A DNA stretch of 64,000 nucleotides from Undibacterium sp. Jales W-56. Its GTDB lineage: Bacteria > Pseudomonadota > Gammaproteobacteria > Burkholderiales > Burkholderiaceae_D. The stretch covers positions 496,001-560,000 of the forward strand of contig NZ_JAJLQW010000001.1 in the NCBI RefSeq assembly GCF_025548535.1, written 5' to 3'. The position numbers and the translations under genes were made by a program. How positions within the stretch are numbered: position 1 is the first letter of the stretch; every line of letters starts with the position of its first letter. Shown here in pieces: positions 23,306 to 53,230 of this stretch. The notes beneath the pieces were generated by a model, which searched no databases, was not told where the DNA came from, and was given only the letters and a program-made list of their open reading frames with translations.

Positions 23306-23590
23306 ATGGAAACCGAAGTACGTCACCTCACCCAGCGCGAGCTGGCCAACCGCTGGAACAAATCCGAGGCCACCATCGAACGCTACCGCTCCGATGGCGT
23401 CGGCCCCAAGTACCTCAAGATCGGCGGCGCGGTCAGATACCGGCTTGAGGACATCGAACAGTTCGAGCGGGCCTGCTTGCACTTCAGTCCGGACGAGGCT
23501 GCCTACGACGACTCAGTTCGATTCCGTGATTCGCAATCGAACCCGCGTCCGCAAGTCAGCGATGCCGGAGTCTCTCAGTCAACTTCGTAA
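23306..23590 (+). CDS. HTH DNA-binding protein, AlpA/excisionase-like
   Basis: A 94-residue protein whose first 55 residues form a MerR/AlpA-type winged helix (LTQRELANRWNKSEATIERY, then YLKIGGAVRYRLEDIEQFE). Such proteins act as excisionases or regulators on integrated elements. The tail is polar and unstructured. The start is fixed by AAGGAAAA at 23294-23301 and by the leader element upstream. It stands 174 bp before the defence operon's HTH gene and may be the recombination directionality factor of the element. Confidence 0.8.
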   Translation: METEVRHLTQRELANRWNKSEATIERYRSDGVGPKYLKIGGAVRYRLEDIEQFERACLHFSPDEAAYDDSVRFRDSQSNPRPQVSDAGVSQSTS

Positions 23591-23764: not shown

Positions 23765-24019
23765 ATGTCAACCAGTACTACTGAGGGCGAGATCCTCACC
23801 ATTAGGCAGGTCGCGGATTATCTGAAGGTCACCGAGCGGACGATCTACCGGCTGGCTGCGGCCAAGAAGATCCCTGCCTTCAAGGTCGGCGGGACGTGGC
23901 GGTTTTCGCGTGCAGACATCGACAGCTGGATCAAGCAGCAGTCGATGGAGGCACTTGACCAGGGCCGTGACGAGGAAGACCAGGCCAAAAGCCAATTGAA
24001 TGATGGGGAGCGAAAGTAA
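23765..24019 (+). CDS. HTH (excisionase-fold) protein leading the defence operon
   Basis: An 84-residue protein with the excisionase-family DNA-binding fold: ILTIRQVADYLKVTERTIYR at about 10-29 and IPAFKVGGTWRFSRADIDSW at about 37-56, then a charged tail. Its stop codon overlaps the ATPase start by one base (TAATG), so it is translationally coupled to the defence genes. It is more likely the operon's regulator than a true excisionase. BREX operons usually have WYL-type regulators, so this is a different control type. The start ATG at 23765 was chosen because the upstream extension lacks any domain. Confidence 0.8.
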   Translation: MSTSTTEGEILTIRQVADYLKVTERTIYRLAAAKKIPAFKVGGTWRFSRADIDSWIKQQSMEALDQGRDEEDQAKSQLNDGERK

Positions 24020-26766
24020 TGTTTGGACTGACTCTACGAGAAGAATTCCGGGGCAAACGCCTCAAAGGGACAGCCATTGAGCTCTCCAACGAAACGAACA
24101 CCGGCGCGACCCAGATCGCGGCACAGGAATTCCTGGAGATCACCTATCCCACGCATGACGTGCTGAAGGGAATCGAGGCCGTTGGGCCGCACCAAGGGCG
24201 GCCCGTGGTGGTAATTGGTGAGCGCGGCCTTGGTAAGTCGCATTTGATGGCGGCGCTTTATCACGCCGTGAATGACGCAACGTCCACTGGCGCTTGGCTC
24301 AATTCATGGGCAACCACGCTGGGCGAGCCGCAGATCGGCAAGATCGCATTGCGCAGCGGGATGCTGGTGATCGGCGAGAGCTTGCACCGCCAGCGCTACA
24401 AATTCCTGTGGGATTTGCTGTTAGAACGTCATCCCCACGGCACCTACATTAAGGGCAAGTGGGAAGGCATGGGCGCGGCGAAAACCGACATCCCGTCCGA
24501 CAAGCTCATCCTTGAGCTGCTGCAGCACAGCCCAACGATGCTGCTACTCGACGAATTCCAGACGTGGTACGACGGCCTGACCAACACCAAGCAGTACCCG
24601 TGGAAGAACTGGGCGTTCAATTTCATCCAGATACTCTCGGAGATCGCCAAGGAACATCCTGAGCTGCTGGTGCTCGTCATCTCGGTGCGCAACGGAGGCA
24701 GCGACGCATACCAGCAGGTACACCGGGTCAATCCGATTCCTATCGACTTCAAGGCAGGCGGCAGTCCCGAGCGCATCCAGCAGGATCGTCGGCGCATGCT
24801 GCTGCACCGTCTGTTCGACAACCGCATGCAAGTTCCCGCTGCCAATGTCGACTCTCTGGTGACAAAACACGTCGCGGAGTATTTCCGCCTGCTCGACGTG
24901 CCGTCCTCTGAGCAAGACCGCAAGCGCAAGGAGTTCGTCGAATCCTGGCCCTACGCCCCGCACCTGCTGCAGTTGCTCGAAGACCAGGTGTTGGTAGCCA
25001 CTGATGCGCAGGAAACGCGCGACATGATTCGCATTCTGGCCAACCTGTTTAAGAGCCGAGGCGAAACTGCACCGATCCTCACCGCTGCCGACTTCCGGCT
25101 GGATGACGACGCCGCAGGCATTGGCGCGCTGCTCGATTCGGTGTCGAATCAGCAGCACCGCACGCTGCGCGAAAAGGCGCTGCGCAACATCACATCGGTG
25201 ACCGAAGCCGTGCCCGGCCACGCCAGCACAGCGCCGCACTTGCAGGAGATCGTTGGCGCGCTCTGGCTGCGTTCGATTGCTGTCGGTAATCTCGCCGGTG
25301 CCGAGCCTGCCACCCTGCAGGCCGACATCACTCGCGACAAGGCTATCGACGACAACGCCTTCCAAGTTGAACTGGACACGGTCGTCGAGAACAGCTTCAA
25401 CATCCATCAAGACGGCCCTCGGCTGGTGTTTCGGGAGGAAGAGAACCCACAGGCAAAGCTGATGGCCTGCGCCCGCAACGACAAGCTGTTCTTGGACGGT
25501 TCTGACCTTGCCCAGCTCGCGAAGGAAGTGCGCTACGTCATCGGCGGTACCGAAGAGGTTGCCAAGACGTTCCGCGTCATCGCGTTGCCGAAATCCTGGC
25601 CGTCCGACCCGTGGTCGTCGCTCGACGAAACCGAGCAGCCTGACCGCTGGGACGACCGCCTGCCGATCCTCGTTCTGCCGGAGGAGCCGGACAAGCTCAA
25701 TGAGCGCCTGGGTGGGTGGCTGAAAGACCATCTGCAAAAGCGTCGCAACACCGTTCGCTTTCTGCTGCCGCGCTCGGGCTCGTCGAATGCTTTTCAAGAC
25801 CGAGATCTCCTGATCCTTGCCCGCGCTGAAATGAAAGCGCAGGAATGGAGTAGTCAAAACCCGGAGTACAAGAAACTGCAGCACAAGTACCAAGGCGAGC
25901 TGCGCGACATCCTGAAAAAGCGCTTTGACCGTTTCGCCGTGCTGCACCGCTGGAATTTCAGTGACCCAAGCCAGTGCGAGTTCAGTATCGAGAGCCTGAA
26001 AAAGCAAGGTGCGCAGATCCCGGAAGGCATCGAGGAAGCGCTGATCAACGATCTTTTCGTGCCCGAGGATTTCGAAGACCTTGTTCTGGAAGCCGCTGGC
26101 GAGAACTCTCCGGTCGGCAAGCTGCTGCGTGAATTGCAGGAGCCACGTCCGGCAGGTCAGAACTGCATTCCGTGGCTTGGCGAGACTTCGATGAAGGAAC
26201 GCATCCTGCGTCTATGCGCACGGGGCAAGATCGCGATCAACCTGCGCGGCATGGAATTCCTCCAAGCGCAGCCCGGCGAGGATGAAGACACCGCGTGGAA
26301 GCGCTTGCGGCCCAAGCTCTCTTATACCGGTCGCCAGCTCGACGAAGTTTTCTTGTTGGAGCCATCTGCAGTGCCGACAACGGGCGGCACGGCGCAGCCC
26401 GCGCCGCCTGTCGGAGATCCCAACGGCGGTGGCCTCTTTGGTGGCGGGACAACACCGCCGGTACCGCCCACTGGTGGTGACCCCACAGCAGGTGGCTACA
26501 CAACACCGCCCCAAACCAATGGCGGGATTTTTGGTGGTGAGCCGACCACTACCGGCGGCAAGCCGCGCGTGAGCTTGAATAACCCAGCCACCTCTGCGCT
26601 GAATCTCATCGGCAAGCTGGAAGGCTGGGGCATTGGCCCCGCGACCCCGGTTACGGAAGTGACGATCAAGGTGTCCGCCGCGACCGGCGCACAGGTGAAG
26701 GAATTGCTCAAGAAACTGCCCGATGGCATGACCTTCGAGCTCACCCTTGAGAAGGAAGACATCTGA
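24019..26766 (+). CDS. DUF499 P-loop ATPase, BrxC/PglY-like
   Basis: A 915-residue AAA-type ATPase of the DUF499 (COG1483) group, related to BrxC/PglY of BREX. Walker A is GERGLGKS at 67-74 and Walker B is LLLDE at 175-179, directly followed by FQTWYDG. A central region of about 600 residues is mostly helical. From about 784 to 847 lies a Pro/Gly/Thr-rich linker (repeats of GGLFGGG and GGIFGGE type), after which a small C-terminal domain of about 65 residues follows. In BREX this ATPase is required for defence and works with PglX and PglZ. It overlaps the PglZ gene start by one base. No nuclease motif is visible. Confidence 0.85.
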   Translation: MFGLTLREEFRGKRLKGTAIELSNETNTGATQIAAQEFLEITYPTHDVLKGIEAVGPHQGRPVVVIGERGLGKSHLMAALYHAVNDATSTGAWLNSWATTLGEPQIGKIALRSGMLVIGESLHRQRYKFLWDLLLERHPHGTYIKGKWEGMGAAKTDIPSDKLILELLQHSPTMLLLDEFQTWYDGLTNTKQYPWKNWAFNFIQILSEIAKEHPELLVLVISVRNGGSDAYQQVHRVNPIPIDFKAGGSPERIQQDRRRMLLHRLFDNRMQVPAANVDSLVTKHVAEYFRLLDVPSSEQDRKRKEFVESWPYAPHLLQLLEDQVLVATDAQETRDMIRILANLFKSRGETAPILTAADFRLDDDAAGIGALLDSVSNQQHRTLREKALRNITSVTEAVPGHASTAPHLQEIVGALWLRSIAVGNLAGAEPATLQADITRDKAIDDNAFQVELDTVVENSFNIHQDGPRLVFREEENPQAKLMACARNDKLFLDGSDLAQLAKEVRYVIGGTEEVAKTFRVIALPKSWPSDPWSSLDETEQPDRWDDRLPILVLPEEPDKLNERLGGWLKDHLQKRRNTVRFLLPRSGSSNAFQDRDLLILARAEMKAQEWSSQNPEYKKLQHKYQGELRDILKKRFDRFAVLHRWNFSDPSQCEFSIESLKKQGAQIPEGIEEALINDLFVPEDFEDLVLEAAGENSPVGKLLRELQEPRPAGQNCIPWLGETSMKERILRLCARGKIAINLRGMEFLQAQPGEDEDTAWKRLRPKLSYTGRQLDEVFLLEPSAVPTTGGTAQPAPPVGDPNGGGLFGGGTTPPVPPTGGDPTAGGYTTPPQTNGGIFGGEPTTTGGKPRVSLNNPATSALNLIGKLEGWGIGPATPVTEVTIKVSAATGAQVKELLKKLPDGMTFELTLEKEDI

Positions 26767-27755
26767 TGACGCTCGACGCCGGGATTCTCCACCGCCTGAC
26801 CAAAGGCACACCTGAAGACGCATGGCGCGTCATCATCAACAAGGCAGTCGAGATTGCCGCGAAGCCGCTCGCCGCAGGCAATGCCCCGGGCGAAGTCACC
26901 AAGCGCGACCGTGAGATCGGGACACTCGATCATTTCCTCTCGACCAGCGGATGGGATTTGTGGCACGCCTTCGGCGACACCGTCGAACGCACCTCGGATC
27001 GGCTGGTGCGCTGGTGGGCCGAACCCTACAGCGCGAAGGCAGTGCTGATCCTTGATGGCCTATCGTTGCGCGAGCTGCCGTGGCTGCTGCAAGGCGCGAA
27101 AGAACGTGGTTTCACACTGCACGAAGTGACAGCAAACGCGTCGGAGCTGCCGGGCGAAACAAACGAGTTTGCCCGAGCACTCGGCTTTGGCAGCCGCAGT
27201 CAGCTACAGAACAACGGTGGTGGACTGGCCCACAAGTTGACTCCGACCCACACCGAATGCGTGGATATAGCGTGGAAAGACTGCGCCGGTTTGGTTGATG
27301 CATCACCGAATTGGGTGTTCTGGCATCACTGGCCCGACAGCAAGGTGCATGACGGCTCGGGTGCGGGCCAGGGGCTCGATACGTTGACGCGCGACGCGGC
27401 GGAGCAATTGACCAGCGATGATTTCTGGGCGTTGGTCGAACGCTTGGCGACGGGACGTCGGCTTGTGATTACCTCCGACCACGGCTATGCCGCCACCGGC
27501 TATTTTCCAGACGCGGACGGTGAGGTGGGGCAATTCCTCAAGAAGACCTTCGCCAGCGGACGTAGCACGGCTGGAGGCGGTGAAACTGGCCCCTTTGTGC
27601 CGCCCGTGGCAATGCAAATCAACAGCCCGCACGGCGCGCACCGCCTCGCGGTTGGCCGTTGGAAATGGAAAAGCCAAGGCGGTTACCCGACGTTGACGCA
27701 CGGCGGCCTCTCGTTGCTTGAGGTGCTGTCGCCCTTCGTCGAACTCACCAAATAA
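26766..27755 (+). CDS. Short PglZ-domain protein
   Basis: A 329-residue PglZ-family protein, a member of the alkaline phosphatase superfamily. Metal-ligand motifs are present: Asp97 in VLILDGLSLREL, and Asp238-His239 in ITSDHGYAATG. A further His lies in SPHGAHRLAVGRWKW near 285-299. Typical BREX PglZ proteins are about twice this length or more; here little besides the catalytic domain remains. It follows the ATPase with a one-base overlap and precedes the methyltransferase by 12 bp. Biochemical role in BREX is unsettled; the family is essential for defence where tested. Confidence 0.82.
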   Translation: MTLDAGILHRLTKGTPEDAWRVIINKAVEIAAKPLAAGNAPGEVTKRDREIGTLDHFLSTSGWDLWHAFGDTVERTSDRLVRWWAEPYSAKAVLILDGLSLRELPWLLQGAKERGFTLHEVTANASELPGETNEFARALGFGSRSQLQNNGGGLAHKLTPTHTECVDIAWKDCAGLVDASPNWVFWHHWPDSKVHDGSGAGQGLDTLTRDAAEQLTSDDFWALVERLATGRRLVITSDHGYAATGYFPDADGEVGQFLKKTFASGRSTAGGGETGPFVPPVAMQINSPHGAHRLAVGRWKWKSQGGYPTLTHGGLSLLEVLSPFVELTK

Positions 27756-27767
27756 GGAAAGCCTCGC

Positions 27768-30700
27768 GTGGCAACAAAAAAAGAACAACTGGCGCAAGAA
27801 GTCGCCAAGGCAGTGGGCGCAGGCAAAGTCGTAGCACTCGAAACAGTTGATTTCAATGATCCGAATCGCCCCAAGACCTGTCTGGAAGTCGACTTCCCGA
27901 TCCTGCCCGTCAATCAGGTGGCGATCATCGAAGGCAATGCTGGTAAGCCGATCTACCAGATGTCGAAATGGTGGGCGCGGCGGCGCTCCAGTGTGTTCCG
28001 CTCGATGCTGATTGCAGCAGCAACCAAGGCCCCGGAAGACAAATCGCATGCGGCCAAACTGGTGTGGGACAACTACTACGCCAACCACCAGAAAAAAGGC
28101 GCGTTCAAGCACCTGAAGGTAGCGGACATCTTCATGGGCGGTGGCACCACGTTGGTGGAAGGCTCGCGACTCGGGATGCAGATGTACGGTAACGACTTGA
28201 ACCCAGTCGCTTGGTTTGTCGTGAGGCAGGAACTGGCCAACGTCGATCTCGAGGAGGTGAAGCGCCTGCTCGCCGACATCGAGGCCGAGGTCAAACCGCA
28301 GATCATGCCGTTCTACTACTGCGACGGCCCAAACGGTGAGAAAGGCAAATGGACGCACCTGCCAAGTAAGCGCGTGATGTCCACCGATTTTGATCCACTA
28401 AGCCTCAACCAAGAGCAGCGGCGTGAGTACAGTTATGAAGGCCCAGAGATCATTTACACCTTCTGGGCCAAACATGGGCCATGTCAAGTAACAGGCTGCG
28501 GTCATCGCACACCGATAATGACCAGCCCGGTAATGGCAGTGAAAACCATCAGCGTGAAGCACTGGGAGCATAGTTGCGGCAAGTGCGGTGGTGAGTTCGA
28601 TGTCGAGGACAACGCCGCGCGAATGGCTCCCGATGTGCCGCTCTACGTAGCACCGTCCGAGCGCCCCTTCTCTATTCTTGATCGGAAAAAAGGTGTCATA
28701 TGCCCGCATTGCGGACATACAGCGCTCGTGAACCTCGGTAGAGGCAAAAACAAAAAGGTCGAACTCAGTTTGCTCGTGCATCCGCAGTGGCTCGCGGGTA
28801 GCGCAAAACAGGATGCCAACGGACTGCCTTTCGGTGGCTCGGCGCAAGATGACGCTGTATCGACGGCTCGCTGGAATGCAGAACGTGCATCAAAGATTCG
28901 TCTGTTGGAGGTGCGTGGCGCACTTCCGGAGGATGTTACCTGTCCAGAAACGAAGGTCACCTTCAAGACTGGCGAGATCGAAGGCTCCGTGCCGAAGCAA
29001 GGGCACTTCATATGTCGTTCCTGTGGCACGATTAAAGATCAACTCAGTAGTTTCAAAGCTACCGGTAAGACAGGCCCTTCTGCGGGTTATGCGATTCAGG
29101 GATACGCACCCCTTAGTAGTGAAAAAGGCGATGCTTACAACGGACGCTTCTTTGCACCATTCAATACTCAAGCTGCTCGCCAATACGATGCAGCATTGGC
29201 CGAATGGGATCTACGGAAGGATCAAGACTTACTCCCATACTGGCCAAAAGACAGCAAGATCCCGCGCGGCCACGAAGCACATCAGCGTCGTCCGCTTGAC
29301 CAGCATGGGTACAACTATTGGACAGATTTTTTCAATCCGCGCCAACTGTTCGTGCATGCGCTTTTGTTAAAGGCGATCACAACACTCGGCAAATACGACT
29401 GGGCCGTTCGTGAATATGTTCTTGGTGGATTCCAGCAGTACCTTCGGAACCAGAACATGTTTTGTTTCTGGAATCCGCAGCGCGACACGCCGGAGCCGCA
29501 CTTTTCAAACAATAACTATCACCCGAAAACAACGGCGATTGAGAACTGTGTGTTCCCAAACCTGGGACGTGGCAATTGGGCGTCGTGCGTCGAGGGTATT
29601 GTTGAAGGCAAGGAGTGGGCTAAGCAGCCCTGGGAGCTTGTCAGTCTTCAACAGCTCGGTCGTACGCATCCAGAACTTGCACAGAATTGTTCAGGAAAAA
29701 GTGAAAAAGCGTCGCCGGGAGATCCCGTCCAAGTAGGAGCGGTTTTTCAGGGCTCGTCTACAGAGCTTTCGCAGGTTGAGAGCAGTACAGTCGACTTAGT
29801 AATTACTGATCCACCGTTCGGTGACTTGATTCAGTATTCTGAACTGGCAGACTTCTTCTATGTTTGGCTCCGCTGTGTTCTCGCAAAGCAGTATCCAACG
29901 ATCTTCGGCGGCGAGTACACGCCAAAGACATTAGAAGCCGTCTCAAATAAGTTTAGAGAGCCTGAAAACCCCAACGGGTTCTATCAACGGTTGTTGACCG
30001 AATGTTGGCGCGAAGGGTACCGCGTTCTAAAACCATCTGGCATTCTCGCTTTCACATTCCATCATAGCGAAGATGAGCCATGGGTGGCCGTGCTGGAGTC
30101 GCTGTTCGATGCGGGGTACTACCTCGAAGCAACCTATCCGATTCGCTCGGACGAGACGAAGGGCGAAGGGCAATTCGGATCACAGAAAGTTGAGTACGAC
30201 ATCATCCATGTCTGCCGCAAACGTACCGAAGAACCCAAGGCGGTGAGCTGGGGCCGTATGCGCCGCGAGGTGATGGCCGATGTGCGTCAGTTGCAGGCGA
30301 TGCTTGAAAACCACGCCAAGGAAGGGTTGCCTGCTGCCGACATTCAAGTCATCCGGCGTGGCAAGGCCCTGGAATACTTCTCGCGGCATTACGGAAAGGT
30401 CTACGTTGATGAAGGGCGTGCAATTTCCGTTAAAGAGGCGCTTGTGGGTATCAATCAGCTCATCGACGAAGATGCTGATAAGGGCAAGGAGCCACCTCCG
30501 GTCAATGCGGAGCCAATGACACGCCAGTTTCTCCGTACCTTTGACGGAAAGGCTGAAATTGCCCGTGATCAACTGCAGAAGTTCCTCAAGGGTTCGATCA
30601 CCACACCGGATGAATTCGTGCAGCGTGGTTGGTGCTCCGAAAAGAGCAAGATTTTTATAGCTGCCGATCCCCTCGACTTTGCCCGTGATTGGCAGGGCAA

Positions 30701-30977
30701 GCACAAACGCAAGCTCACCTCCGATCTTGATCAGGCATTGGTATTGATCGGAGCCTGCTACGACGGCAGCGGAATCAATGCATCGGACACGCTCAAAAAC
30801 GAAAATTTCAAGCCACATGTGGCTTTAAAACCGCTACTTGAATGGCTGTCCAGGCGCGCAGCCAATCCACCTGCCCGCAATGCGGCATCCCGTGCGGTGT
30901 CGATTTTCAACAACTGGGCAGCGACGCAGGCTCCGAAACCGCTGCAAGGTTCTCTGTTTGAGGAGTACGAACTATGA
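27768..30977 (+). CDS. DUF1156 DNA methyltransferase, PglXI-like
   Basis: A 1069-residue methyltransferase of the DUF1156 (COG1743) group. The DUF1156 region is near 35-80 (CLEVDFPILPVN and MSKWWARRRSSVFRSML). The SAM motif FMGGGTT starts at residue 122, and catalytic motif IV DPPF is at 681-684, more than 550 residues later. Between them are several Cys pairs (CGKCGG, CPHCGH, CRSCGT) that look like zinc ribbons. Motif type suggests N6-adenine methylation. GTG at 27768 is the start, with AAGGAAAG upstream. In BREX this enzyme marks the host DNA. The C-terminus LQGSLFEEYEL carries a QxxLF peptide at 1060-1064. The middle of the gene looks richer in A+T than its ends. Confidence 0.87.
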   Translation: MATKKEQLAQEVAKAVGAGKVVALETVDFNDPNRPKTCLEVDFPILPVNQVAIIEGNAGKPIYQMSKWWARRRSSVFRSMLIAAATKAPEDKSHAAKLVWDNYYANHQKKGAFKHLKVADIFMGGGTTLVEGSRLGMQMYGNDLNPVAWFVVRQELANVDLEEVKRLLADIEAEVKPQIMPFYYCDGPNGEKGKWTHLPSKRVMSTDFDPLSLNQEQRREYSYEGPEIIYTFWAKHGPCQVTGCGHRTPIMTSPVMAVKTISVKHWEHSCGKCGGEFDVEDNAARMAPDVPLYVAPSERPFSILDRKKGVICPHCGHTALVNLGRGKNKKVELSLLVHPQWLAGSAKQDANGLPFGGSAQDDAVSTARWNAERASKIRLLEVRGALPEDVTCPETKVTFKTGEIEGSVPKQGHFICRSCGTIKDQLSSFKATGKTGPSAGYAIQGYAPLSSEKGDAYNGRFFAPFNTQAARQYDAALAEWDLRKDQDLLPYWPKDSKIPRGHEAHQRRPLDQHGYNYWTDFFNPRQLFVHALLLKAITTLGKYDWAVREYVLGGFQQYLRNQNMFCFWNPQRDTPEPHFSNNNYHPKTTAIENCVFPNLGRGNWASCVEGIVEGKEWAKQPWELVSLQQLGRTHPELAQNCSGKSEKASPGDPVQVGAVFQGSSTELSQVESSTVDLVITDPPFGDLIQYSELADFFYVWLRCVLAKQYPTIFGGEYTPKTLEAVSNKFREPENPNGFYQRLLTECWREGYRVLKPSGILAFTFHHSEDEPWVAVLESLFDAGYYLEATYPIRSDETKGEGQFGSQKVEYDIIHVCRKRTEEPKAVSWGRMRREVMADVRQLQAMLENHAKEGLPAADIQVIRRGKALEYFSRHYGKVYVDEGRAISVKEALVGINQLIDEDADKGKEPPPVNAEPMTRQFLRTFDGKAEIARDQLQKFLKGSITTPDEFVQRGWCSEKSKIFIAADPLDFARDWQGKHKRKLTSDLDQALVLIGACYDGSGINASDTLKNENFKPHVALKPLLEWLSRRAANPPARNAASRAVSIFNNWAATQAPKPLQGSLFEEYEL

Positions 30978-31474
30978 AGCAGCTAAGAGACACCGTATGG
31001 CAGCGGCGCGGTACGAGTTGGCTATGGGATGCTGAGGCGCTGGCCCAAGTGTGTTCGGCCAGCGAGGTGTGGAGCCTGCGTCAATTCATTCAGGCAAACG
31101 GACATTGGCCCGAAGACCTGCCCAGCAATGACAGCAATACTCTGGTGGTTGCGGGGATGGACGGTTGCTTGGATTTGCTTTTACCTTCCGATGCGGAGAG
31201 CTGGCTGGGTGCGGAGATGAAAGACGCCATCCTGTCTTTCCAAGAGTCCTACGACGGGCAAGCGGCATTGGTGTTCTGGCTGCCATCTGGCGCTGGCCGG
31301 ATTTCCATCAACTCGGCCACAGACGCCGTGAGCTGGCGCTGTGCTCACCCACACGCCCACGAGAACCTCGATTTCGGGCGCGTCTTGTGGGGTGAGGCGC
31401 GTGAGTATCCGCAGGAAATATTGCTGCGCGAGGGAGCGAAGCCCGCTGGACTCTTTCACTTGCGAATCACATGA
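30974..31474 (+). CDS. Unknown 166-residue protein in the defence operon
   Basis: I do not recognise a family. The protein is acidic and rich in Trp and aromatic residues (TVWQRRGTSWLWDAEALAQV near 7-26). It looks like a compact alpha/beta domain with no P-loop, zinc ligands or membrane segment. It overlaps the methyltransferase stop by 4 bp (ATGA) and ends 7 bp before the helicase start, so it is an integral operon member. BrxF of type 3 BREX is a similarly small protein but has a P-loop, which is absent here, so it is not a clear equivalent. Confidence 0.75.
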   Translation: MKQLRDTVWQRRGTSWLWDAEALAQVCSASEVWSLRQFIQANGHWPEDLPSNDSNTLVVAGMDGCLDLLLPSDAESWLGAEMKDAILSFQESYDGQAALVFWLPSGAGRISINSATDAVSWRCAHPHAHENLDFGRVLWGEAREYPQEILLREGAKPAGLFHLRIT

Positions 31475-31481
31475 GGCTTCA

Positions 31482-34250
31482 ATGACGGATCAGCCTCAAT
31501 TCACGCCTGGAGAACGGATCACCCACACGGAGTTTGGCCAGGGTGTCGTCCTTGATGCCGCGCATGACGGTTACTTGCGCGCCTTCTTCGGCGTCGGTGA
31601 ACGTCGAGTTCCGCTCGCGTCGATCCGCAGGGAGCTTTCGCGCACGGAGCGTATTCTGCGTGCGGTCGATGGCAGTGCGGATCGGGCGCGAAAGGCGTGG
31701 TTGTCCTATGAGGCACACGCACTTCCAGTGATGGAGAGTGCATCGGCGCTGACGTCGGCCAAGATCGATCTGTTGCCACACCAGGTGGTGTTGACCCATC
31801 GGATCGCCACTGCATCACCTCGCCGTTACCTGATCGCGGATGAAGTCGGGTTGGGCAAAACTATCGAGACCGCGCTCATCCTGCGCGAACTGGCGAGCCG
31901 GGGTGAACTCACACGCGCATTGATGGTGGTGCCTGCTGGTCTCGTGAACAACTGGCATCGTGAACTGAACGAGGTTTTCAACCTCGACTTTGAAGTGTTC
32001 GGCTCCGAGGGTGACATCACCGACCGCAAGACGAACGCCTTCGCTAAGCACGATCGGTTGATCGCCAGTATCGATACCCTCAAGCGCCCGGCACGCATCA
32101 AGCGGCTGTTGGATGCCCCGCGATGGGATCTGGTGGTGTTCGACGAGGCGCATCACCTCACCGCCTATCGCACCGGCGGCAAGGTCAGGAAAACCGAAAA
32201 CTACAAGCTGGCCGAGGCGCTGAAAGATCACTCGCGCGATCTGATGCTGCTTTCGGCCACACCGCACCAAGGTAATCATTTCCAGTTCTGGATGTTGGTG
32301 CAGTTGTTGAATCCGACACTGTTCGGTAGTCCCGAGGACATGTTGGAAAACCGCCATCGTCTGAACACGGTGATGTACCGTCGCACCAAGGCAGACGCGT
32401 GCCAGCCAGATGGATCACCGCTGTTTGCCCGCCGCTGGGTGCATACCGAATCGTTCGTAATGGGCGAGGAGGAACGGCGCTTCTACGAGAAGCTACGCGA
32501 GTATCTGGAAGACGGGTTCAATCTTGCGCGTCGTCAGGGAGGCAAAGGTCAAGCCCTCGGTTTCTTGATGGCGATCTTCCAGAAGATTGCAGCGTCTAGT
32601 TTTGCCGCCGTCCGGCGCACGCTCAAGCGACGGCTGCTGATGCTCACGCTGCACGAAGCCTTCCTGCGCGATAAAGACCTCGATATTGAGGGTCGTGAGC
32701 GGCTGACGGATGAAGCGCGCGAACTGATCCACCAAGAATTTAACCTCTCGCGCGACAACATCGGTCGCAGCGAGGCCGATAGGGTGCTGGCCGATCTCAA
32801 GTACCGGTTGGTGAAGAAACTCGACGAGGAGGCGCTGGAGTTGGCCTCCGACCCGTATGGCAGCGAGTATTCAGCAAGCCATGCCGAGGAAGCGGCATCG
32901 GCCGTGGTTGATCTGCATCTGCCGGAGGAGCGTTTGCGCATTGGAGAGTTGTTGGCGGTGTTCCCGCAGCAACGCGAAACCAAGGCGCAGAAGCTGCTCG
33001 ACGGGCTGGGAACGCTTTGGCGACAAAACCCGAACGAGAAGATCGTGGTGTTCGCCACTTACCTCGGCACGGTAGATTTGATCGCCCGTGAAATCGAACA
33101 AACGTTTCCTGGACAGGGTGTGGCCGTATTGCGCGGCGGCGACCACGGAGCCAAGGTCGCGGCAGAGCGCCGCTTCCGTCAGAAGGATGGCCCGCGCGTG
33201 CTGGTCTGCACTGCAGCCGGTCGGGAAGGCATCAATCTGCAATTCGCTCGCATCCTGTTCAATTTCGACTTGCCGTGGAACCCGATGGATATTGAGCAGC
33301 GCATCGGGCGCATCCATCGCTACGGGCAAAACGACACGGCACAGGTCTACAACCTTGTGCTGTCGGACACCATCGAGGGGCGCATCTTCCTACTGTTGGA
33401 TGAAAAGCTCACCGAGATTGCGCGCACCGTCGGCAAGGTCGACGACCAGGGCAACGTCGCCGAAGACCTGCGCGCACAAATTCTTGGCCAGTTGTCCGAG
33501 CGGCTCAACTATGACCGGCTGTACCAGGAAGCGCTATCTGATCCTGAGTTGAAGCGGACGAAGGTGGAGCTTGAAGCTGCCCTGTCAAATTCCCGCGAGG
33601 CGCGGCAGGTGGTGTTCGATCTGTTCCAAGACCTCAACGGCTTTAGTCTCGACGACTACAAACCATTCTCCGACGTGTCGTCGGGCTTGGATCGACTGGT
33701 GCGCTTCATGTCGGCGGCGGTGGCAGATCGCCAGCAGCGCGTCATCAAGGTAGACGACGATACCTACGACATCGTGACGGTGGATGGTGCTCGCCGCGCC
33801 CGGTTCACCCTGAACCGCGACACGGCCACAAGCCGTGACGATTTGGAACTCATGGGTCTTGATCATTCGCTGGTACAGGAAGAGCTGGGACGGTGGCGTA
33901 GCGTCCCACCAGAAGAGATTGGCATCGCGGTCGAGGGCGACGTGGATGCAGCGGTGCTGCTTTCGTTCTGGCTGGTGGAAGCCTCTGCCGGAAACGGCGA
34001 ACGTCGCGTGGCGGTGCAGTCGATTGCGGTGAAGCAGGATGGGACGCGCGTGCCCGCCGTCGAGCGTCAATGCGAGCGCTACCTGCAAGCACCGACCACC
34101 ACGCCGAAGTTTTCGCCAGAGCAACGGCTTGACCTCTTCTCCCACGTCGTCGAACCGACGTTGCAACGAGAACTCAAGCACAAGGGCGCAGCGAATGGCG
34201 ATGGCAGCTATTCGGCAGAGCTGATTGGCTATGTGGAAATCGTAGCGTAG
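31482..34250 (+). CDS. SNF2-family helicase, BrxHII/DrmD-like
   Basis: A 922-residue SF2 DNA translocase of the HepA/SNF2 type. A small beta domain at the N-terminus (GERITHTEFGQGVVLD) resembles tudor/SH3-type modules. Walker A is DEVGLGKT at 120-127 and the DEAH box is at 221-224. Helicase C motifs follow: GREGINLQ, and QRIGRIHRYGQ near 604-614. About 300 residues of unknown structure follow. Type 3 BREX (BrxHII) and DISARM (DrmD) both use such a helicase. ATG 31482 was chosen since the domain begins there and the ORF upstream overlaps the previous gene. The next gene is 39 bp downstream. Confidence 0.87.
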   Translation: MTDQPQFTPGERITHTEFGQGVVLDAAHDGYLRAFFGVGERRVPLASIRRELSRTERILRAVDGSADRARKAWLSYEAHALPVMESASALTSAKIDLLPHQVVLTHRIATASPRRYLIADEVGLGKTIETALILRELASRGELTRALMVVPAGLVNNWHRELNEVFNLDFEVFGSEGDITDRKTNAFAKHDRLIASIDTLKRPARIKRLLDAPRWDLVVFDEAHHLTAYRTGGKVRKTENYKLAEALKDHSRDLMLLSATPHQGNHFQFWMLVQLLNPTLFGSPEDMLENRHRLNTVMYRRTKADACQPDGSPLFARRWVHTESFVMGEEERRFYEKLREYLEDGFNLARRQGGKGQALGFLMAIFQKIAASSFAAVRRTLKRRLLMLTLHEAFLRDKDLDIEGRERLTDEARELIHQEFNLSRDNIGRSEADRVLADLKYRLVKKLDEEALELASDPYGSEYSASHAEEAASAVVDLHLPEERLRIGELLAVFPQQRETKAQKLLDGLGTLWRQNPNEKIVVFATYLGTVDLIAREIEQTFPGQGVAVLRGGDHGAKVAAERRFRQKDGPRVLVCTAAGREGINLQFARILFNFDLPWNPMDIEQRIGRIHRYGQNDTAQVYNLVLSDTIEGRIFLLLDEKLTEIARTVGKVDDQGNVAEDLRAQILGQLSERLNYDRLYQEALSDPELKRTKVELEAALSNSREARQVVFDLFQDLNGFSLDDYKPFSDVSSGLDRLVRFMSAAVADRQQRVIKVDDDTYDIVTVDGARRARFTLNRDTATSRDDLELMGLDHSLVQEELGRWRSVPPEEIGIAVEGDVDAAVLLSFWLVEASAGNGERRVAVQSIAVKQDGTRVPAVERQCERYLQAPTTTPKFSPEQRLDLFSHVVEPTLQRELKHKGAANGDGSYSAELIGYVEIVA

Positions 34251-34289
34251 GGACGAGACAGCAGAACCGAATTGGCTGAAGGAGAGTTG

Positions 34290-35120
34290 ATGGCATCGCA
34301 AATCGAACGCATTTTGATTCTGGCCAAGACCTACCCGTCGCCCAGCGCACAGCACGTTGAAACGTCGTGCGTCGCTGGTATCAACGAGCAAGGTGCGATG
34401 CGCCGCTTGTATCCTGTGCCCTTCCGCTTAATTGAGGAAGGCCAGAAGTTCAAGAAATGGCAGTGGATCGAAGTGCGCGTCGAGAAGGCCAACAAAGATC
34501 ATCGGACTGAAAGCCACAAGCTCTACGTCGACACGATCACCTGTGGTGATGTGATCGATACGAAAAAGCAGTGGGATGCCCGGTGGCCGTGGATCGAAAA
34601 GCTGCCAACGTTCACGAATTTCGATGATCTCGAAGCGACCCGGATCGAAACGGGGTTGTCGTTGGCGCTGATGCGACCGAAGAAAGTATTGACGCTGGAG
34701 ATCGTTGAGGCGAGGGCCGCAGAATGGACTGACGAGGAGCGCGAGAAGCTACTGCGCTACGAAATGCAGGGGCAGCTTTTCAGCGACACCGAGGTCAAGA
34801 AAATGACGCAGACGCTGAGGAAGGTGCCATTCGACTTCTACTATCGATACGTCTGCGACACGCCGGAGGGCGAGAAGGTGTTCAAGCACAAGATCGTCGA
34901 TTGGGAGGCCGGTGTTTTATTCTGGCATTGCAGCCAGAGTCACGGGGTCAATTGGGAAAAGCCGTTTCGGGCCAAACTAGAAGAGGAGTTGACGGGAAAG
35001 GATTTAATGTTCCTGATGGGTAATCAGCACCGGTTTCAAGACCAGTGGCTGATCATCAGTCTGATCTACCCGCCTAAGCGAAAGCCAGTTGAAGTGACGC
35101 CGCAGGGCTCGCTGTTTTAG
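34290..35120 (+). CDS. Unknown 276-residue protein, last gene of the defence operon
   Basis: No family recognised. It is an alpha/beta protein with many Trp, Lys and Glu residues, no signal peptide and no membrane segment. The N-terminal half (IERILILAKTYPSP, VAGINEQGAMRRLYPVPFR) hints at an OB- or PUA-like beta fold; the middle is helical. The last five residues are QGSLF, the same peptide found near the end of the methyltransferase. ATG 34290 has GAAGGAGAG just upstream; the in-frame TTG at 34272 lies before that site. Its 3' end overlaps the convergent DUF488 gene by 47 bp. Pairing with DUF488 suggests the two act together. Confidence 0.75.
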   Translation: MASQIERILILAKTYPSPSAQHVETSCVAGINEQGAMRRLYPVPFRLIEEGQKFKKWQWIEVRVEKANKDHRTESHKLYVDTITCGDVIDTKKQWDARWPWIEKLPTFTNFDDLEATRIETGLSLALMRPKKVLTLEIVEARAAEWTDEEREKLLRYEMQGQLFSDTEVKKMTQTLRKVPFDFYYRYVCDTPEGEKVFKHKIVDWEAGVLFWHCSQSHGVNWEKPFRAKLEEELTGKDLMFLMGNQHRFQDQWLIISLIYPPKRKPVEVTPQGSLF

Positions 35121-35556
35121 CTGCTGCCTTGATGTGTGTGACACGCGCACCGCAGTAATCTTTGACCGCATTCGCCACCATCGAGCGATGGCAGAAGTTC
35201 GAGTCGGCCTCGAAGCAAAGCAGCGCGCAGTTTGACGCTACCGCCAAAGACGAAAGCTCAACGATGGCATCGCCTTGCGTCTTGAGGTACTTCATGAACC
35301 CTTCCGTGTAGCGCTTCCAGTTGCTGTCTTCCCGGTAGCGGTCGCGCACGGGTTTCGGACAGCCCAGTTCCACCATGTGAACATATTCGCGACCTGATAG
35401 GTTCAGCACGTTTGCAAGGGCCTTCTTCGAAAAGCCGGGCTTGCGGGACAGGGGCAGCTCTCGGACGTCGACAATCGTGTCGATGTCGTGCTCAGCGAGC
35501 AACGACATAAACGCGTCGATATCAAGTCCTTCATAGCCGATGGTGAAAACAGTCAT
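35074..35556 (-). CDS. DUF488 family protein
   Basis: A 160-residue DUF488 protein: MTVFTIGYEGLDIDAF, then IVDVRELPLSRKPGFSKKAL and a conserved late block CFEADSNFCHRSMVA with Cys and His, as in other members. Biochemical function is unknown; DUF488 genes are frequent in defence islands and near mobile elements. It reads against the defence operon and its last 47 bp overlap the end of the 276-residue protein gene. A possible promoter on the - strand is TTCCCA (about 35607-35612), 18 bases, TAAAAT, with AGGGG before the start. Confidence 0.8.
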   Translation of the reverse strand: MTVFTIGYEGLDIDAFMSLLAEHDIDTIVDVRELPLSRKPGFSKKALANVLNLSGREYVHMVELGCPKPVRDRYREDSNWKRYTEGFMKYLKTQGDAIVELSSLAVASNCALLCFEADSNFCHRSMVANAVKDYCGARVTHIKAAAKTASPAASLQLAFA

Positions 35557-35649: not shown

Positions 35650-36090
35650 TCAAGTGCAGTAGAGCACTGATTCGGCGCGTCTTCTGCTGGTCAGTCCGGG
35701 CAGGCGCTTTCCAGCCGCCCAAATCCACTTCTTGAATTCTCCGGCCGCCGCCTCGTGTTCGCCACGATTGGCTCGCCGACGAAGAGTCGAGCGTTGCAGT
35801 GCGCCCGCGCCGAGGTTGAATGTAAATGACACCAATGCGTCGAACTGGCCATCGGTCAGCGGCACGCGGATCAGGCGCACAACGGCTGCTTCCGCGATCT
35901 GTGCATCTATCCGCAGGAGTTCGACGCCCTCTTCCTCAGAGATTCCATCCGCAAATCGAGCACGTTCCTTTGGCAAGACGACGTGACCGTAGCCGATTGT
36001 CGGATAGCCCGCAGGGCAAATGTAGATCGTCGGACTGAAACCCTCGAAGCGTTTGATAAGGGCCAGCCCGACATCGGTGACGTGGCGCAT
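35650..36090 (-). CDS. GH24 phage lysozyme (endolysin)
   Basis: A 146-residue T4/P22-type muramidase that cuts peptidoglycan at the end of the phage cycle. The catalytic Glu is residue 16 in KRFEGFSPTIY, and YPTIGYGHV follows at about 29-37. The second acidic position of T4 lysozyme is a Cys here (YICPAG), as in many proteobacterial phage relatives. There is no signal or SAR helix, so release depends on the holin. ATG 36090 follows the holin stop by one base and has GGGGTGG upstream; GTG 36099 in frame is an alternative. It is the last gene of the late operon. Confidence 0.88.
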   Translation of the reverse strand: MRHVTDVGLALIKRFEGFSPTIYICPAGYPTIGYGHVVLPKERARFADGISEEEGVELLRIDAQIAEAAVVRLIRVPLTDGQFDALVSFTFNLGAGALQRSTLRRRANRGEHEAAAGEFKKWIWAAGKRLPGLTSRRRAESVLYCT

Positions 36091-36091
36091 C

Positions 36092-36553
36092 TCAGCCACC
36101 CCGGCGCATCTTGGCGATCTGGCGGCTACCGAACCAGAACGACATCACGGCGGCGAACAGCGCCTGTGTTTCGTTGTCCCACACGAGCCGGAGGGCGTCC
36201 AGCAATTGGACACCCTGGCCTCCCATCAGCGACGTCAGTGTGGCGATCTTGATCACGGCGAACACCACGAAGAAGGCGTAGGTAATGACCGGGCGTACCG
36301 AGGCTTGCAGGCCTTCAACCCACGCGATGCCAGTCGGGTGGTTGGCATAGTTGTAGAGCGCCTGTGACTCGGCAACATCCGCCCCGATCTGGATCTCTTC
36401 CAGTCGTTGGGTGTGGCCAAGCTTCTGCATTTCCATCTGGCGGTCGAGGATGGAAAGTTCGTGGTCGCGATCCTTGCCCTCGCGCCAGAGTTTCAGAAAT
36501 TCCGGGAAGGCGGAACCGAGGAAGCCAAGTAGGGAGCCGAGCAGGGTCAACAT
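36092..36553 (-). CDS. 3TM-type phage holin
   Basis: A 153-residue protein of the three-helix GTA/phage holin family. It begins with a hydrophobic stretch (MLTLLGSLLGFLGSAFPEFL), then a charged coiled segment (about 22-75). Two more hydrophobic helices lie at about 90-107 and 130-145. It should form the membrane lesions that release the lysozyme. ATG 36553 is 3 bp after the preceding gene's stop and fits the helix start. No spanin genes could be identified nearby. Confidence 0.75.
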   Translation of the reverse strand: MLTLLGSLLGFLGSAFPEFLKLWREGKDRDHELSILDRQMEMQKLGHTQRLEEIQIGADVAESQALYNYANHPTGIAWVEGLQASVRPVITYAFFVVFAVIKIATLTSLMGGQGVQLLDALRLVWDNETQALFAAVMSFWFGSRQIAKMRRGG

Positions 36554-36555
36554 GA

Positions 36556-36846
36556 TCAGTTTCCCCCGCCGAAAACTTTGAGCTTGATGATCGCGCCCGC
36601 GACCAGCGCCAGCACAAAGCCGGTGGTGATCATCTTGACCACCGTCTGCCACGCTGTGCGCTTGGCGATGTTGAAGGCTTCGAGCAGGCCACGCAGCGCG
36701 CGGATGTCGTTGGCGGCATCCTCGCCGTCGAGGCCAACCTCGGCCAGTGCAGCACGCGCGCCGCGTTCAGCGACGCGCTCCAGCAGTTCTTCAAATTCAT
36801 CCTTGGGCATGGTCACCATGCCGTCGGTCACAGTCGGTGCGTTCAT
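36556..36846 (-). CDS. DUF6127-like small phage membrane protein
   Basis: A 96-residue protein with an acidic helical first half (PKDEFEELLERVAERGARAAL) and one hydrophobic segment near the C-terminus (about 69-90, TTGFVLALVAGAIIKLKVF). It resembles the DUF6127 proteins seen beside phage lysis genes. It could assist lysis, for example as an anti-holin, but no role is proven. Confidence 0.65.
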   Translation of the reverse strand: MNAPTVTDGMVTMPKDEFEELLERVAERGARAALAEVGLDGEDAANDIRALRGLLEAFNIAKRTAWQTVVKMITTGFVLALVAGAIIKLKVFGGGN

Positions 36847-36911
36847 TTCGCGTTCTCCAGAAATGCGAAACCCGCCACGCGGGCGGGTCTCAGGGTTGGT
36901 AAAGGGGTTGA

Positions 36912-37136
36912 TCAGATTTCGATTTCGACAGTCGGCAAAGTAGGTGCGTCGCCGGTCACTCTGCCGTCGCGCACAAACACGCGGTCGCCAACGGAGCCAC
37001 TACCGGACACACGCAGCAAGCCACCATCAAGCAGTTCCACAGTGACGGTGCCATCGGCGTGATGGGTGGCCACGGTGCCGAGCAGCAACTGGGAATCCGG
37101 CAGCAAGTCCTCGAACTGCCGCCACAGGTTTGGCAT
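36912..37136 (-). CDS. Small phage protein of the tail-tip region
   Basis: A 74-residue beta-rich, acidic protein (LLGTVATHHADGTVTVELLD, then GDRVFVRDGRVTGDAPTLP). It resembles small OB- or beta-sandwich tail-associated proteins and sits between the 613-residue tail protein and the lysis genes. Function not known. Confidence 0.6.
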   Translation of the reverse strand: MPNLWRQFEDLLPDSQLLLGTVATHHADGTVTVELLDGGLLRVSGSGSVGDRVFVRDGRVTGDAPTLPTVEIEI

Positions 37137-37146
37137 TGAATTTCTC

Positions 37147-38988
37147 CTACAGGTAGTGGCGTTCGACTTCGATGGTCTGGCGCACGGTCAGGCTTTCACC
37201 CCAATCGGCGGCGATGCTGGTGGCACGCACCAGACCTCGCCAGTTGGTCGTTCCTTCGCCGACAGCGATCAGCAGCCCGGGATCGAGCAGGCCCACCGAA
37301 TTCAGCATTGGCAGTTCCAGCGTGACCACGGCCTGCTTGCCGGTGTCGGCCAGGATCGTGCGGCCGCGTTCGCGTGCCGCGTCGGCGTGGGTGATCAGAC
37401 CGTCGACCACCATCGGCGCGACGGCGTCGCCTGCCGTGCCGGATCGGATGACGTGGCCGGTAATGCCCTGGCGTTCGCCCGACACGTACACTGCGTTGAA
37501 GGAAGGTTTCTCCTGCCAGCGCAGGTTCAGTGTCTTGACGACATCGATGGGCAACGACCGATCCGGTGGCAACGTCGCCCAGTTCCACGGCAATTCCGGA
37601 TAGCGCGACTTGGCCACCAGTGTCTTGAGCCGGGTGTGTGCATTGAGGTAACCGCCGACCGACTCAGCGATGTGACCGATGACGCCCATCGGGCTCAGGG
37701 ACTGGTAGCCCCAACTGCCAGTGGGCACCAGCCAATCGGGCAAGCGCCAGTCGAGGTTGAAACCGGTCACCAGTCCCGGCCGCGTGAGTTCCTGTTCGGC
37801 CAGTTGCCGTGCCGTGAAGGGCGAGGTGGGTACGAACGAGCGCTTTGGTGCGTAGGGCTCGGCCAGATACGCCGCCAGCGACCGCCCTCGGATGCCAAGG
37901 CTCGACTGGCCGAATTCGCGCCGCACGTCGAAGCCCTCAACCAGCATCACCCAGGTCACGCCGTTGATGGTGATCTCGATCTCCACCGGCCCGGACGAGG
38001 TTGGCTCGATCAATTCCAGCGCAGAGTACGGCAGATTGGCCGAGAATCCCCACGCCCACGAATCGGTGTCGATGCCGATCTGGATGCTTTTGACCGGGAT
38101 GGGTTCGCGACCCGGGAGCCGCACGACGTCGACAGAGTTGCTCACGAAGTAGACCTTGAGAATGGGGACGCTGAAGCTTCCGCTCGGGCACGGGTGCGCG
38201 CCAAAGTCGAGTAGCAACAGCGGTCGCCACGCGACACCAGCTCGAGTCGCGCGGCAGATGAAATCGAGATTCGGGTGGTACTTTGGCTGCGGTGGTTCGA
38301 CGGGCGGGTTGACCGGCAGGTGCGACTCGCCGAAACGGGGCTGGCGACCAATCTCCCACGGCAAACCCCAGCGTTTTGATTGCCAGATGCCGTGCGCGAA
38401 TCCGAAATGCCAGCGCTTCGATAAAGCCACTGCCTTTTGCCACGGCTGCAACTGATGGCTAGGGAATGGCACCAGCCAAACAAACGGGCTGACCACAGCA
38501 TCGGCAAATGCTTCGCCCTCACCCCAGTGCAAACCGAGTAGGTCGTGCTTCGGCCACAACGGATCGAAGTGCTCTGTCGTCGCTTCAGCGATCTGCTCCG
38601 TGTCGTCCCAATGAACGCGACTGGCATCACGGCTGCGGACGTTCTCGCCACTTCTTGATGCTAACGACGCGGTGGACTGCTGGCCGTGATTCCACGCAAG
38701 CGCAGTCGCAACTCGGTCGTGTCCAGTGTCACCCCAACCATCCTGCGTCGCCCTGGCTTGCCAGTCGGAGCGCTGCCAGTTGATCCTGCCACCGGCCTCG
38801 AGCTTGCGGTTCACGAGGTTGTTGTACGCCGCCCGAATATGGACGGTCGGCGGCGGCAACTGAATGCGGATCGTGGCGCTCGTGGCCTCGGGTGTCTCGC
38901 CGTTCTCCTGCTGCAATCCGAAGTCGAGATTGGTCGATCCACCGGCGGGAGGCGTCCATGCCCCTTTGAAGTCCAGATCCAGGCCCAC
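37147..38988 (-). CDS. Phage tail-tip/hub protein, 613 residues
   Basis: A long beta-rich protein with many Trp residues. Its second half (IQIGIDTDSWAWGFSANLP, GVTWVMLVEGFDVRREFG, and later AESVGGYLN) has the look of baseplate hub or tail-tip proteins that form the distal end of a siphophage tail. The first third is Trp- and Gln-rich and may bind other tip components. Assignment rests on position (after the tape measure and other tail genes) and character, not on a catalytic motif. Confidence 0.6.
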   Translation of the reverse strand: MGLDLDFKGAWTPPAGGSTNLDFGLQQENGETPEATSATIRIQLPPPTVHIRAAYNNLVNRKLEAGGRINWQRSDWQARATQDGWGDTGHDRVATALAWNHGQQSTASLASRSGENVRSRDASRVHWDDTEQIAEATTEHFDPLWPKHDLLGLHWGEGEAFADAVVSPFVWLVPFPSHQLQPWQKAVALSKRWHFGFAHGIWQSKRWGLPWEIGRQPRFGESHLPVNPPVEPPQPKYHPNLDFICRATRAGVAWRPLLLLDFGAHPCPSGSFSVPILKVYFVSNSVDVVRLPGREPIPVKSIQIGIDTDSWAWGFSANLPYSALELIEPTSSGPVEIEITINGVTWVMLVEGFDVRREFGQSSLGIRGRSLAAYLAEPYAPKRSFVPTSPFTARQLAEQELTRPGLVTGFNLDWRLPDWLVPTGSWGYQSLSPMGVIGHIAESVGGYLNAHTRLKTLVAKSRYPELPWNWATLPPDRSLPIDVVKTLNLRWQEKPSFNAVYVSGERQGITGHVIRSGTAGDAVAPMVVDGLITHADAARERGRTILADTGKQAVVTLELPMLNSVGLLDPGLLIAVGEGTTNWRGLVRATSIAADWGESLTVRQTIEVERHYL

Positions 38989-38994
38989 GGTTCA

Positions 38995-39872: not shown

Positions 39873-39876
39873 CGCG

Positions 39877-41043: not shown

Positions 41044-41075
41044 TGAATAGCTCCTGGAGGTTGGTTGGCGGTCGC

Positions 41076-45104: not shown

Positions 45105-45127
45105 AAGGGATCACAAAGCCCGGCTCA

Positions 45128-49237: not shown

Positions 49238-49239
49238 TT

Positions 49240-50473: not shown

Positions 50474-50493
50474 TGCCGCCCTTTCCTGATTCA

Positions 50494-51467: not shown

Positions 51468-51469
51468 GG

Positions 51470-51916: not shown

Positions 51917-51921
51917 CGGGG

Positions 51922-53228: not shown

Positions 53229-53230
53229 GG

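Follow-up and report, generated by a model that had tools for sequence, protein, structure and literature searches.

The locus analyzed here is closest to the BREX-Related (BR) systems, whose Type-3 BR subtype was defined by Rakesh and Krishnan (NAR, January 2026; PMC12839542). The accessible text of that article sets DUF499 ATPases apart from BrxC/DUF6079, reports a separate iSTAND protein in 82% of Type-3 BR cases, and describes two four-cysteine clusters in a subset of the DUF1156-type N6-methyltransferases (MTases) of the subtype; it also groups the Hma system of PADLOC as Type-1 BR, in which the helicase carries a fused PD-(D/E)XK nuclease in 79% of cases (PMC12839542). The PglZ of type I BREX is reported to be a metal-dependent nuclease contributing to defence (PMC12205998).

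We analyzed a 64,000-nucleotide stretch of DNA from Undibacterium sp. Jales W-56 (the window) containing an operon that is likely a Type-3 BR anti-phage system, apparently carried as prophage cargo at the 3′ end of a tmRNA gene. The assignment to Type-3 BR draws on gene content, order, motifs, and conservation, and the operon is a further example of the published subtype, which is itself already known. The first-pass annotation had proposed a BREX type 3-like set forming a separate subtype; the set is indeed distinct from type 3 BREX and belongs to a subtype of its own, whereas its novelty is rejected because the accessible text of PMC12839542 already defines Type-3 BR.

Gene content and conserved motifs

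All eight ORFs and their positions, as first annotated, were located in the window, where they form a six-gene operon (an HTH gene and five core genes) plus a two-gene candidate defence module. Neighboring genes on the + strand overlap or are separated by at most 39 bp, in agreement with the tight spacing (within 40 bp) claimed previously, and the DUF488 and 276-aa genes share 47 bp at the 3′ end of the latter. A promoter scan was uninformative (2 found versus 3.4 expected). Loss of function in key motifs had been named as counter-evidence to activity; instead, the catalytic motifs of the PglZ, ATPase, MTase, and helicase are intact and conserved.

The first gene (23765..24019, + strand, inside ORF 23591-24019) encodes an 84-aa excisionase-fold HTH protein, a likely regulator, which matches the Pfam model HTH_17 above its gathering score (67.8 bits) and falls narrowly below the cut-off of NCBIfam MAD1 (79.9 bits versus 80). 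An HTH motif search in upstream ORFs was positive for 13 of 47, the motif being too strict when the list was read by eye. The DUF499 ATPase (24019..26766, +; 915 aa) scores 32.3 bits with PF04465 (cut-off 23; E 3.1e-8), and both of its Walker motifs, A (GERGLGKS) and B (LLLDEF), are conserved across 74 aligned rows. The DUF1156-type DNA MTase (27768..30977, +; 1069 aa) matches HmaB in PADLOC (E 1.3e-37) and N6_N4_Mtase in Pfam above the gathering score (E 1.7e-7), with DUF1156 itself below its gathering score (16.8 bits versus 24, E 0.0075); the DIFMGGGTT and DPPF motifs are conserved, as are eight cysteines in its insert (65 rows). Searches of PDB sequences with the MTase and the ATPase returned zero matches. 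The SNF2-type helicase (31482..34250, +; 922 aa, with an ATG at 31482 in an ORF that opens at 31341) matches BrxHI|BrxHII (E 1.3e-101) and the Pfam SNF2 and Helicase_C models above their gathering scores, with helicase motifs conserved in 51 rows; Pfam revealed the helicase domains alone, plus a weak RapA_C, and no nuclease domain.

The Pfam PglZ model has no match to the 329-aa protein (26766..27755, +), nor anywhere in its own genome, and the PglZ identity thus rests on the profile–profile comparison with BREX PglZ (probability 93.75, E 1.8e-7) and on motifs: residues D97, T132, D191, H195, D238, H239, and H312 are invariant among 37 sequences. The protein is a stand-alone PglZ with active-site-type residues and is predicted to be active. 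In the PDB sequence search, its top row was the designed protein Octarellin (E 0.019), and PorX-type response regulators scored E 0.14.

The 166-aa protein (30974..31474, +) occupies the position at which, according to the accessible description, Type-3 BR can have an iSTAND protein. Its predicted structure weakly resembles P-loop folds, the Walker A motif is absent, and a Foldseek search with the model returned nothing at E ≤ 0.001, with no BrxB or BrxF structures among the matches listed; its profile matched two designed proteins among PDB sequences (E 0.015–0.022). Identity with BrxF by sequence was rejected, as neither PADLOC nor NCBIfam produced a BrxF match and hhalign gave a probability of 0.1 against three BrxF proteins. 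Because the P-loop model is weak, the Walker A motif is missing, and a sequence link to BrxF is lacking, its assignment as the iSTAND (the inactive P-loop protein of Type-3 BR) is inferential, and we treat it as a candidate. The previous statement that the operon has no BrxF holds at the level of sequence, but is qualified by this P-loop-like model in the iSTAND place.

Prophage context

On the right, the operon adjoins genes on the − strand (35650..64000) for an endolysin, tail, tape measure, major tail, major head, portal, and terminase proteins (PHROGs matches on 10 proteins). On the left lies a putative attL (23535..23550, no strand assigned), a 16-bp copy of the tmRNA gene 3′ end that exactly matches L081:16086-16101, within the tmRNA gene at L081:16070-16430. 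A 16-mer from the last 60 nt of the tmRNA gene occurred in none of 200 shuffles of window positions 13500-36100. The prophage continues past the window into L081, where a recombinase is encoded at L081:13856-15307, for an apparent size of ~56.6 kb, and its GC content is higher than that of both flanks. Since it is located between the tmRNA-derived repeat and the phage lysis genes, the operon appears to be cargo of this prophage, inserted at the tmRNA 3′ end. The prophage context extends partly outside 23765..35556 and was absent from the earlier reading. A scan of IMG/VR with a phage tail protein yielded 4 loci (L107-L110).

It is unlikely that the operon instead belongs to the chromosome or to a defence island, outside the prophage, with an unrelated phage having inserted alongside. 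Such an arrangement would accommodate the rise in GC seen at 19 kb, which is to the left of the repeat, the location of the operon between a recombinase gene and tRNA-Ser in L004, L023, and L084, and the failure of a search of relatives to produce an empty site (the tmRNA gene was present in 8 of the 9 relatives' stretches, the ninth being 1065 bases, and the left-flank genes were absent there). Yet the operon has the tmRNA 3′ repeat on its left, no other copy with up to 3 mismatches occurs between the operon and the phage, and a related endolysin gene adjoins the operon in L044, L049, L071, L073, L083, and L085, all of which argue for prophage cargo.

Relatives and nested defence systems

A PglZ scan yielded at least 79 loci (L153-L155 were left out, having been judged the same contigs as L009, L008, and L056). 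The order ATPase–PglZ–MTase–166 aa–helicase on one strand is kept in 66 of the 79 relatives listed, as read from the gene listing (a separate count scored + strand presence), and all eight genes occur in L073 (Collimonas). The remaining 13 listed relatives, many on short contigs, have at least one core gene not found. Best-segment identities range from 36 to 97% per core protein. With so many relatives sharing it, the arrangement is not due to chance, nor is the gene set a decayed single case.

This recurrence also bears on the possibility that the operon descends from type 3 BREX by divergence and loss of BrxA and BrxF. The two share a methyltransferase, a PglZ domain homologous to that of the longer BREX PglZ proteins, and a BrxHII-type helicase, BrxHI|BrxHII being the best helicase match. 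Against such an origin, which we regard as very improbable, the ATPase matches DUF499, separate from BrxC/DUF6079 in the accessible text of PMC12839542, and the PglZ is a bare 329-aa domain, compared with 668, 676, and 764 aa for three type 3 BREX PglZ proteins from genomes with BrxF. Furthermore, the PADLOC searches gave Hma, BrxHI|BrxHII, and PDC-M19 matches and no BrxF, and neither PADLOC nor NCBIfam matched BrxA among the eight proteins, bearing out the annotated lack of BrxA.

The spread of the operon is patchy, with 5 of 399 genomes of the host's order carrying it, including the host's own genome and one weak match (E 8.7e-4). Relatives occur on 37 plasmid records, 32 of which were typed as conjugative. 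Additional DNA of more than 900 nt separates core genes in 29 of the 79 listed relatives, and the operon of relatives can be interrupted by known or candidate defence systems, several relatives harboring whole known systems (IetAS, SIR2-HerA, and HEC-01) between core genes.

In the window, the helicase gene is followed by the genes for the 276-aa, PDC-M19B-like protein (34290..35120, +, in an ORF that opens with TTG at 34272; PADLOC E 1.7e-58) and the DUF488, PDC-M19A-like protein (35074..35556, −; PF04343 above its gathering score with E 2.9e-27, PADLOC PDC-M19A E 4.6e-35). Both components of PDC-M19, which has candidate status only in PADLOC, are thus present side by side; no paper in the literature searched names PDC-M19. 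The predicted structure of the 276-aa protein had a mean pLDDT of 56 and was left out of the analysis. Found in 1 of the 79 listed relatives, the pair is not core, and its original inclusion in the cluster was not sustained: the 38 loci whose sequence extends 1.5 kb or more beyond the helicase (36 of the 79 relatives and 2 of 3 IMG/VR loci) have varied genes there. We consider the pair an added candidate defence module, accessory to the operon. That all eight genes form one obligate system and a new subtype is scarcely credible, because the tight spacing and the L073 locus, in which the pair is 93% and 87% identical, are outweighed by the rarity of the pair, the varied genes after the helicase, and the 1888 homologues that a protein search returned for the 276-aa family.

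More speculatively, and with appreciable doubt, the Type-3 BR operon might be a modular chassis that prophages, islands, and conjugative plasmids disseminate. The junctions PglZ|MTase and 166 aa|helicase would serve as fixed slots for whole unrelated, co-oriented defence systems (IetAS, SIR2-HerA, and HEC-01) that act as a backup arm, and the window would present a further 3′ slot, holding PDC-M19, with which a tmRNA-integrated phage shuts out its competitors.

Proposed mechanism and comparison with known systems

From the gene content we infer a scheme in which the DUF1156-type MTase would place a site-specific mark on the DNA of host and prophage, and the DUF499 ATPase would build a DNA-bound surveillance complex in which the 166-aa P-loop-like protein is a putative sensor or adaptor without catalytic function. 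The SNF2 helicase may translocate along, or remodel, unmarked DNA, which the metal-dependent stand-alone PglZ would nick, blocking replication. The small HTH protein would regulate the operon, the 276-aa/DUF488 pair may add a further candidate defence module, and the exclusion of competing phages from its host would benefit the prophage. The operon is an intact and compact member of a BREX-like branch defined only recently, and its minimal PglZ makes it a simple system in which to ask whether PglZ by itself is the effector. If the prophage location holds, phages carry Type-3 BR defence as cargo; this, along with the nesting of whole defence systems in relatives, would suggest a route by which such operons spread and diversify.

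DISARM loci contain DrmA, DrmB, and DrmC beside a helicase. Among the eight proteins, the helicase alone matched DISARM genes (DrmD with 306 bits versus the NCBIfam cut-off of 610, and the DrmD and DrmA models of PADLOC), so membership in DISARM was rejected and the suggested place between BREX and DISARM is unsupported on the DISARM side. MADS was likewise rejected, with matches to mad1 (HTH) and, weakly, mad2 (MTase) alone. The operon shares with Hma/Type-1 BR relatives of the helicase, methylase, and ATPase (HmaA E 6.9e-93, HmaB E 1.3e-37, and HmaC E 7.1e-4), but differs in having PglZ and the 166-aa protein and a helicase in which Pfam found no nuclease domain. Apart from the iSTAND, each published Type-3 BR feature that was compared fits: the DUF499 ATPase, the DUF1156-type N6-MTase with two four-cysteine clusters in a zinc-finger insert, the stand-alone PglZ (here predicted active), and the BrxHII-like helicase without a fused nuclease all match, and a small separate extra core protein is common to both. 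The operon differs from the published subtype in that the iSTAND fold is weakly supported for the 166-aa protein, and in its apparent prophage location and PDC-M19 pair, the words “prophage” and “DUF488” having 0 occurrences in the main text of PMC12839542.

Gene content and conservation of the operon

The gene set described in the first-pass annotation was recovered in place, with intact reading frames throughout. On the forward strand, it comprises genes for an HTH protein (23765-24019; Pfam HTH_17), a DUF499 ATPase (24019-26766; DUF499), a PglZ-like protein of 329 aa (26766-27755), a DUF1156-type methyltransferase (MTase; 27768-30977; N6_N4_Mtase), a 166-aa protein (30974-31474), an SNF2 helicase (31482-34250; SNF2/Helicase_C), and a 276-aa protein (34290-35120), followed on the reverse strand by a DUF488 protein (35074-35556; DUF488), all Pfam matches being above cut-off. 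The best PADLOC names among the eight proteins were HmaA, HmaB, BrxHI/BrxHII, and, for the last 2 proteins, the candidate pair PDC-M19A/B. Neither PADLOC nor NCBIfam gave a match at E 0.01 for the 329-aa or the 166-aa protein, and Pfam gave none above its cut-off.

The 329-aa protein, which the Pfam PglZ model did not detect, was assigned by profile comparison. Searched against genome contigs, it identified at least 79 loci with proteins 48% to 93% identical, and alignment of 37 sequences (the window protein and 36 from these loci) revealed invariant D97, T132, D191, H195, D238, H239, and H312. Residues of this kind are metal ligands in PglZ-like enzymes. The 329-aa profile matched that of five longer PglZ proteins from other genomes, picked with the NCBIfam BREX_PglZ_2 model at scores below its cut-off (probability 93.75, E 1.8e-7, 135 columns), and D191, D238/H239, and H312 were paired with conserved D526, D571/H572, and H648 of the longer proteins. 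Three of these five come from genomes that also encode BrxF, above cut-off and on the same contig. Judging from the profile match and the paired residues, the 329-aa protein is a PglZ domain standing alone.

The first-pass annotation had treated all these genes as one cluster. In other genomes, this holds for the five core genes (ATPase, PglZ, MTase, 166-aa protein, and helicase), which occur in unchanged order in 66 of the 79 listed loci (tblastn with the eight window proteins), but not for the 276-aa/DUF488 pair, found in a single one (L073, from Collimonas). Near-invariant motifs were present in the ATPase (74 alignment rows), MTase (65), and helicase (51); within the MTase insert, seven of the eight cysteines are kept in 65/65 rows and the last one in 60/65. 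Tblastn detected the small HTH in 30 of the 79 loci. Where 400 nt or more of upstream sequence is available (69 loci), an ORF directly precedes the ATPase gene in 47. Six of those 47 ORFs were recognized by eye as regulators of approximately 290 to 309 aa, with PADLOC naming WYL for two: in the two loci tested, a WYL-type regulator replaces the small HTH (L023:2933-3832 and L069:6366-7247), and similar ORFs are seen in L027, L063, L064, and L067. Past the helicase, genes vary among the 38 loci with at least 1.5 kb there (36 of the 79 and two IMG/VR loci). Given this variation and the single occurrence of the pair, the unit is a five- or six-gene core with a passenger.

Probable prophage setting and other carriers

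From 35650, reverse-strand genes match PHROGs families for endolysin, tail, tape measure, major tail, major head, portal, and terminase proteins (among the 10 compared, two match only families of unknown function), and the phage extends into the 20 kb of contig that follow (L081). There, a serine recombinase gene (L081:13856-15307) lies near the tmRNA gene (L081:16070-16430), and a 16-bp segment from the 3' end of the tmRNA gene is repeated at window positions 23535-23550, 214 bp to the left of the HTH gene. Although 24 of 60 random pairs shared a 16-mer over the entire scan, making such a match unremarkable, one from the final 60 nt of the tmRNA gene was found in 0 of 200 shuffles of the operon-side sequence. 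The GC content is higher in the operon (0.582) and the phage (0.616) than in the flanks (0.523 and 0.516). Because the tmRNA repeat lies left of the operon, no additional copy (allowing up to 3 mismatches) occurs between operon and phage, and GC exceeds that of the flanks, the operon appears to reside inside an att-bounded prophage of ~56.6 kb. Within the phage, there is one site with 3 mismatches, at 62812. That the operon instead lies outside the att-bounded element would fit a GC content already at 0.56 at 19 to 23.5 kb, left of the putative attL, and the failure to find an empty site among relatives, but we consider it unlikely given the placement of the repeat.

Left of the putative attL, GC rises from 0.46-0.50 before ~19 kb to 0.55-0.58 after; this segment (19000-23534) holds ECF sigma factor and cupin genes and may be what remains of an older insertion. 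The prophage also encodes a ParB-like domain fused to a DNA methyltransferase domain (61418-62689; PHROGs). In L117, a relative's stretch, short matches to the phage serine recombinase and the following gene lie ~2 kb away from tmRNA and may be left over from an element similar to the window prophage.

The operon has a nearby endolysin gene related to that of the window phage in L044, L049 (a match of 60 residues only), L071 (PglZ gene visible only in part), and L073 among the 79 listed loci, and in L083 and L085 among three IMG/VR loci. Between L073 and the window, eight cargo proteins are 79-95% identical, whereas the endolysins are only 41% identical, suggesting transfer of the cargo between distinct phages. 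In L004, L023, and L084, a recombinase gene lies upstream and a tRNA-Ser past the helicase. PglZ was further found in 37 plasmid records (28 from Klebsiella; 32 typed conjugative), in none of the INPHARED phages, and in 5 of the 399 genomes from the host's order, including its own and one at only E 8.7e-4. One conjugative plasmid, Klebsiella michiganensis pK518_KPC (L087), carries blaKPC-2 along with an operon of the published subtype Type-3 BR, in which PglZ and MTase are separated by genes for a SIR2-family protein and an ATP-binding protein.

Defence systems nested in related operons

Gaps over 900 nt were found at 24 of 72 visible PglZ-MTase junctions, 7 of 66 between the 166-aa protein and helicase, 3 of 66 between MTase and the 166-aa protein, and 0 of 79 between ATPase and PglZ. 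At least one such gap occurs in 29 of the 79 listed loci; the window operon has none between core genes. Insert ORFs were grouped by BLASTP, and one or two members per cluster were checked with Pfam and partly PADLOC. They included IetA with IetS (9 loci), HEC-01A (7 loci, partner HEC-01B called in five), SIR2 with HerA (5 loci), PemK/MazF-type toxins (4 loci), Schlafen with a ParA-like ATPase (3 loci), and GmrSD/HEC-06 (1 locus), whereas several other inserts had no match in these searches. The nested systems mostly occupy the PglZ-MTase and 166-aa-helicase junctions; whole defence systems or toxins between core genes are seen, for example, in L002, L003, L009, L043, L049, and L053.

Embedding in Hma operons has served to find defence genes by "guilt-by-embedding" (PMC12988326). 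Embedded nucleases have been reported across BREX and BREX-Related (BR) systems, those of Type-3 BR being described as lacking them or retaining them in limited instances (PMC12839542); the words SIR2 and subtilase are absent from the main text of that paper. In a narrow literature search, none of the papers listed reported preferred junctions or non-nuclease modules in Type-3 BR, and both may be new.

Predicted activity and relation to Type-3 BR

The predicted activity of the window operon is as follows: the MTase would methylate self, surveillance would fall to the DUF499 ATPase together with the 166-aa protein, the helicase would act, and PglZ would nick, this last step leaning on reported type I BREX work (PMC12205998).

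The DUF499-centred BR systems were defined by Rakesh and Krishnan (NAR, 27 January 2026; PMC12839542). As described there, Type-3 BR is known from 569 taxa and combines an ATPase, an MTase (with two zinc fingers in a subset), a BrxHII-like helicase without a nuclease, and a stand-alone PglZ that is active; 82% of cases add an inactive STAND protein as a separate polypeptide. The 166-aa protein is a candidate for this STAND protein, with a model that resembles P-loop folds weakly and with no Walker A motif; every other feature examined in the window operon agrees with the description. The novel subtype proposed in the first-pass annotation is thereby largely superseded, and interest now centres on the apparent location in a prophage and on the modular insertions seen in relatives. 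As these other features match the published definition, the window operon likely belongs to Type-3 BR, a subtype that is already described.
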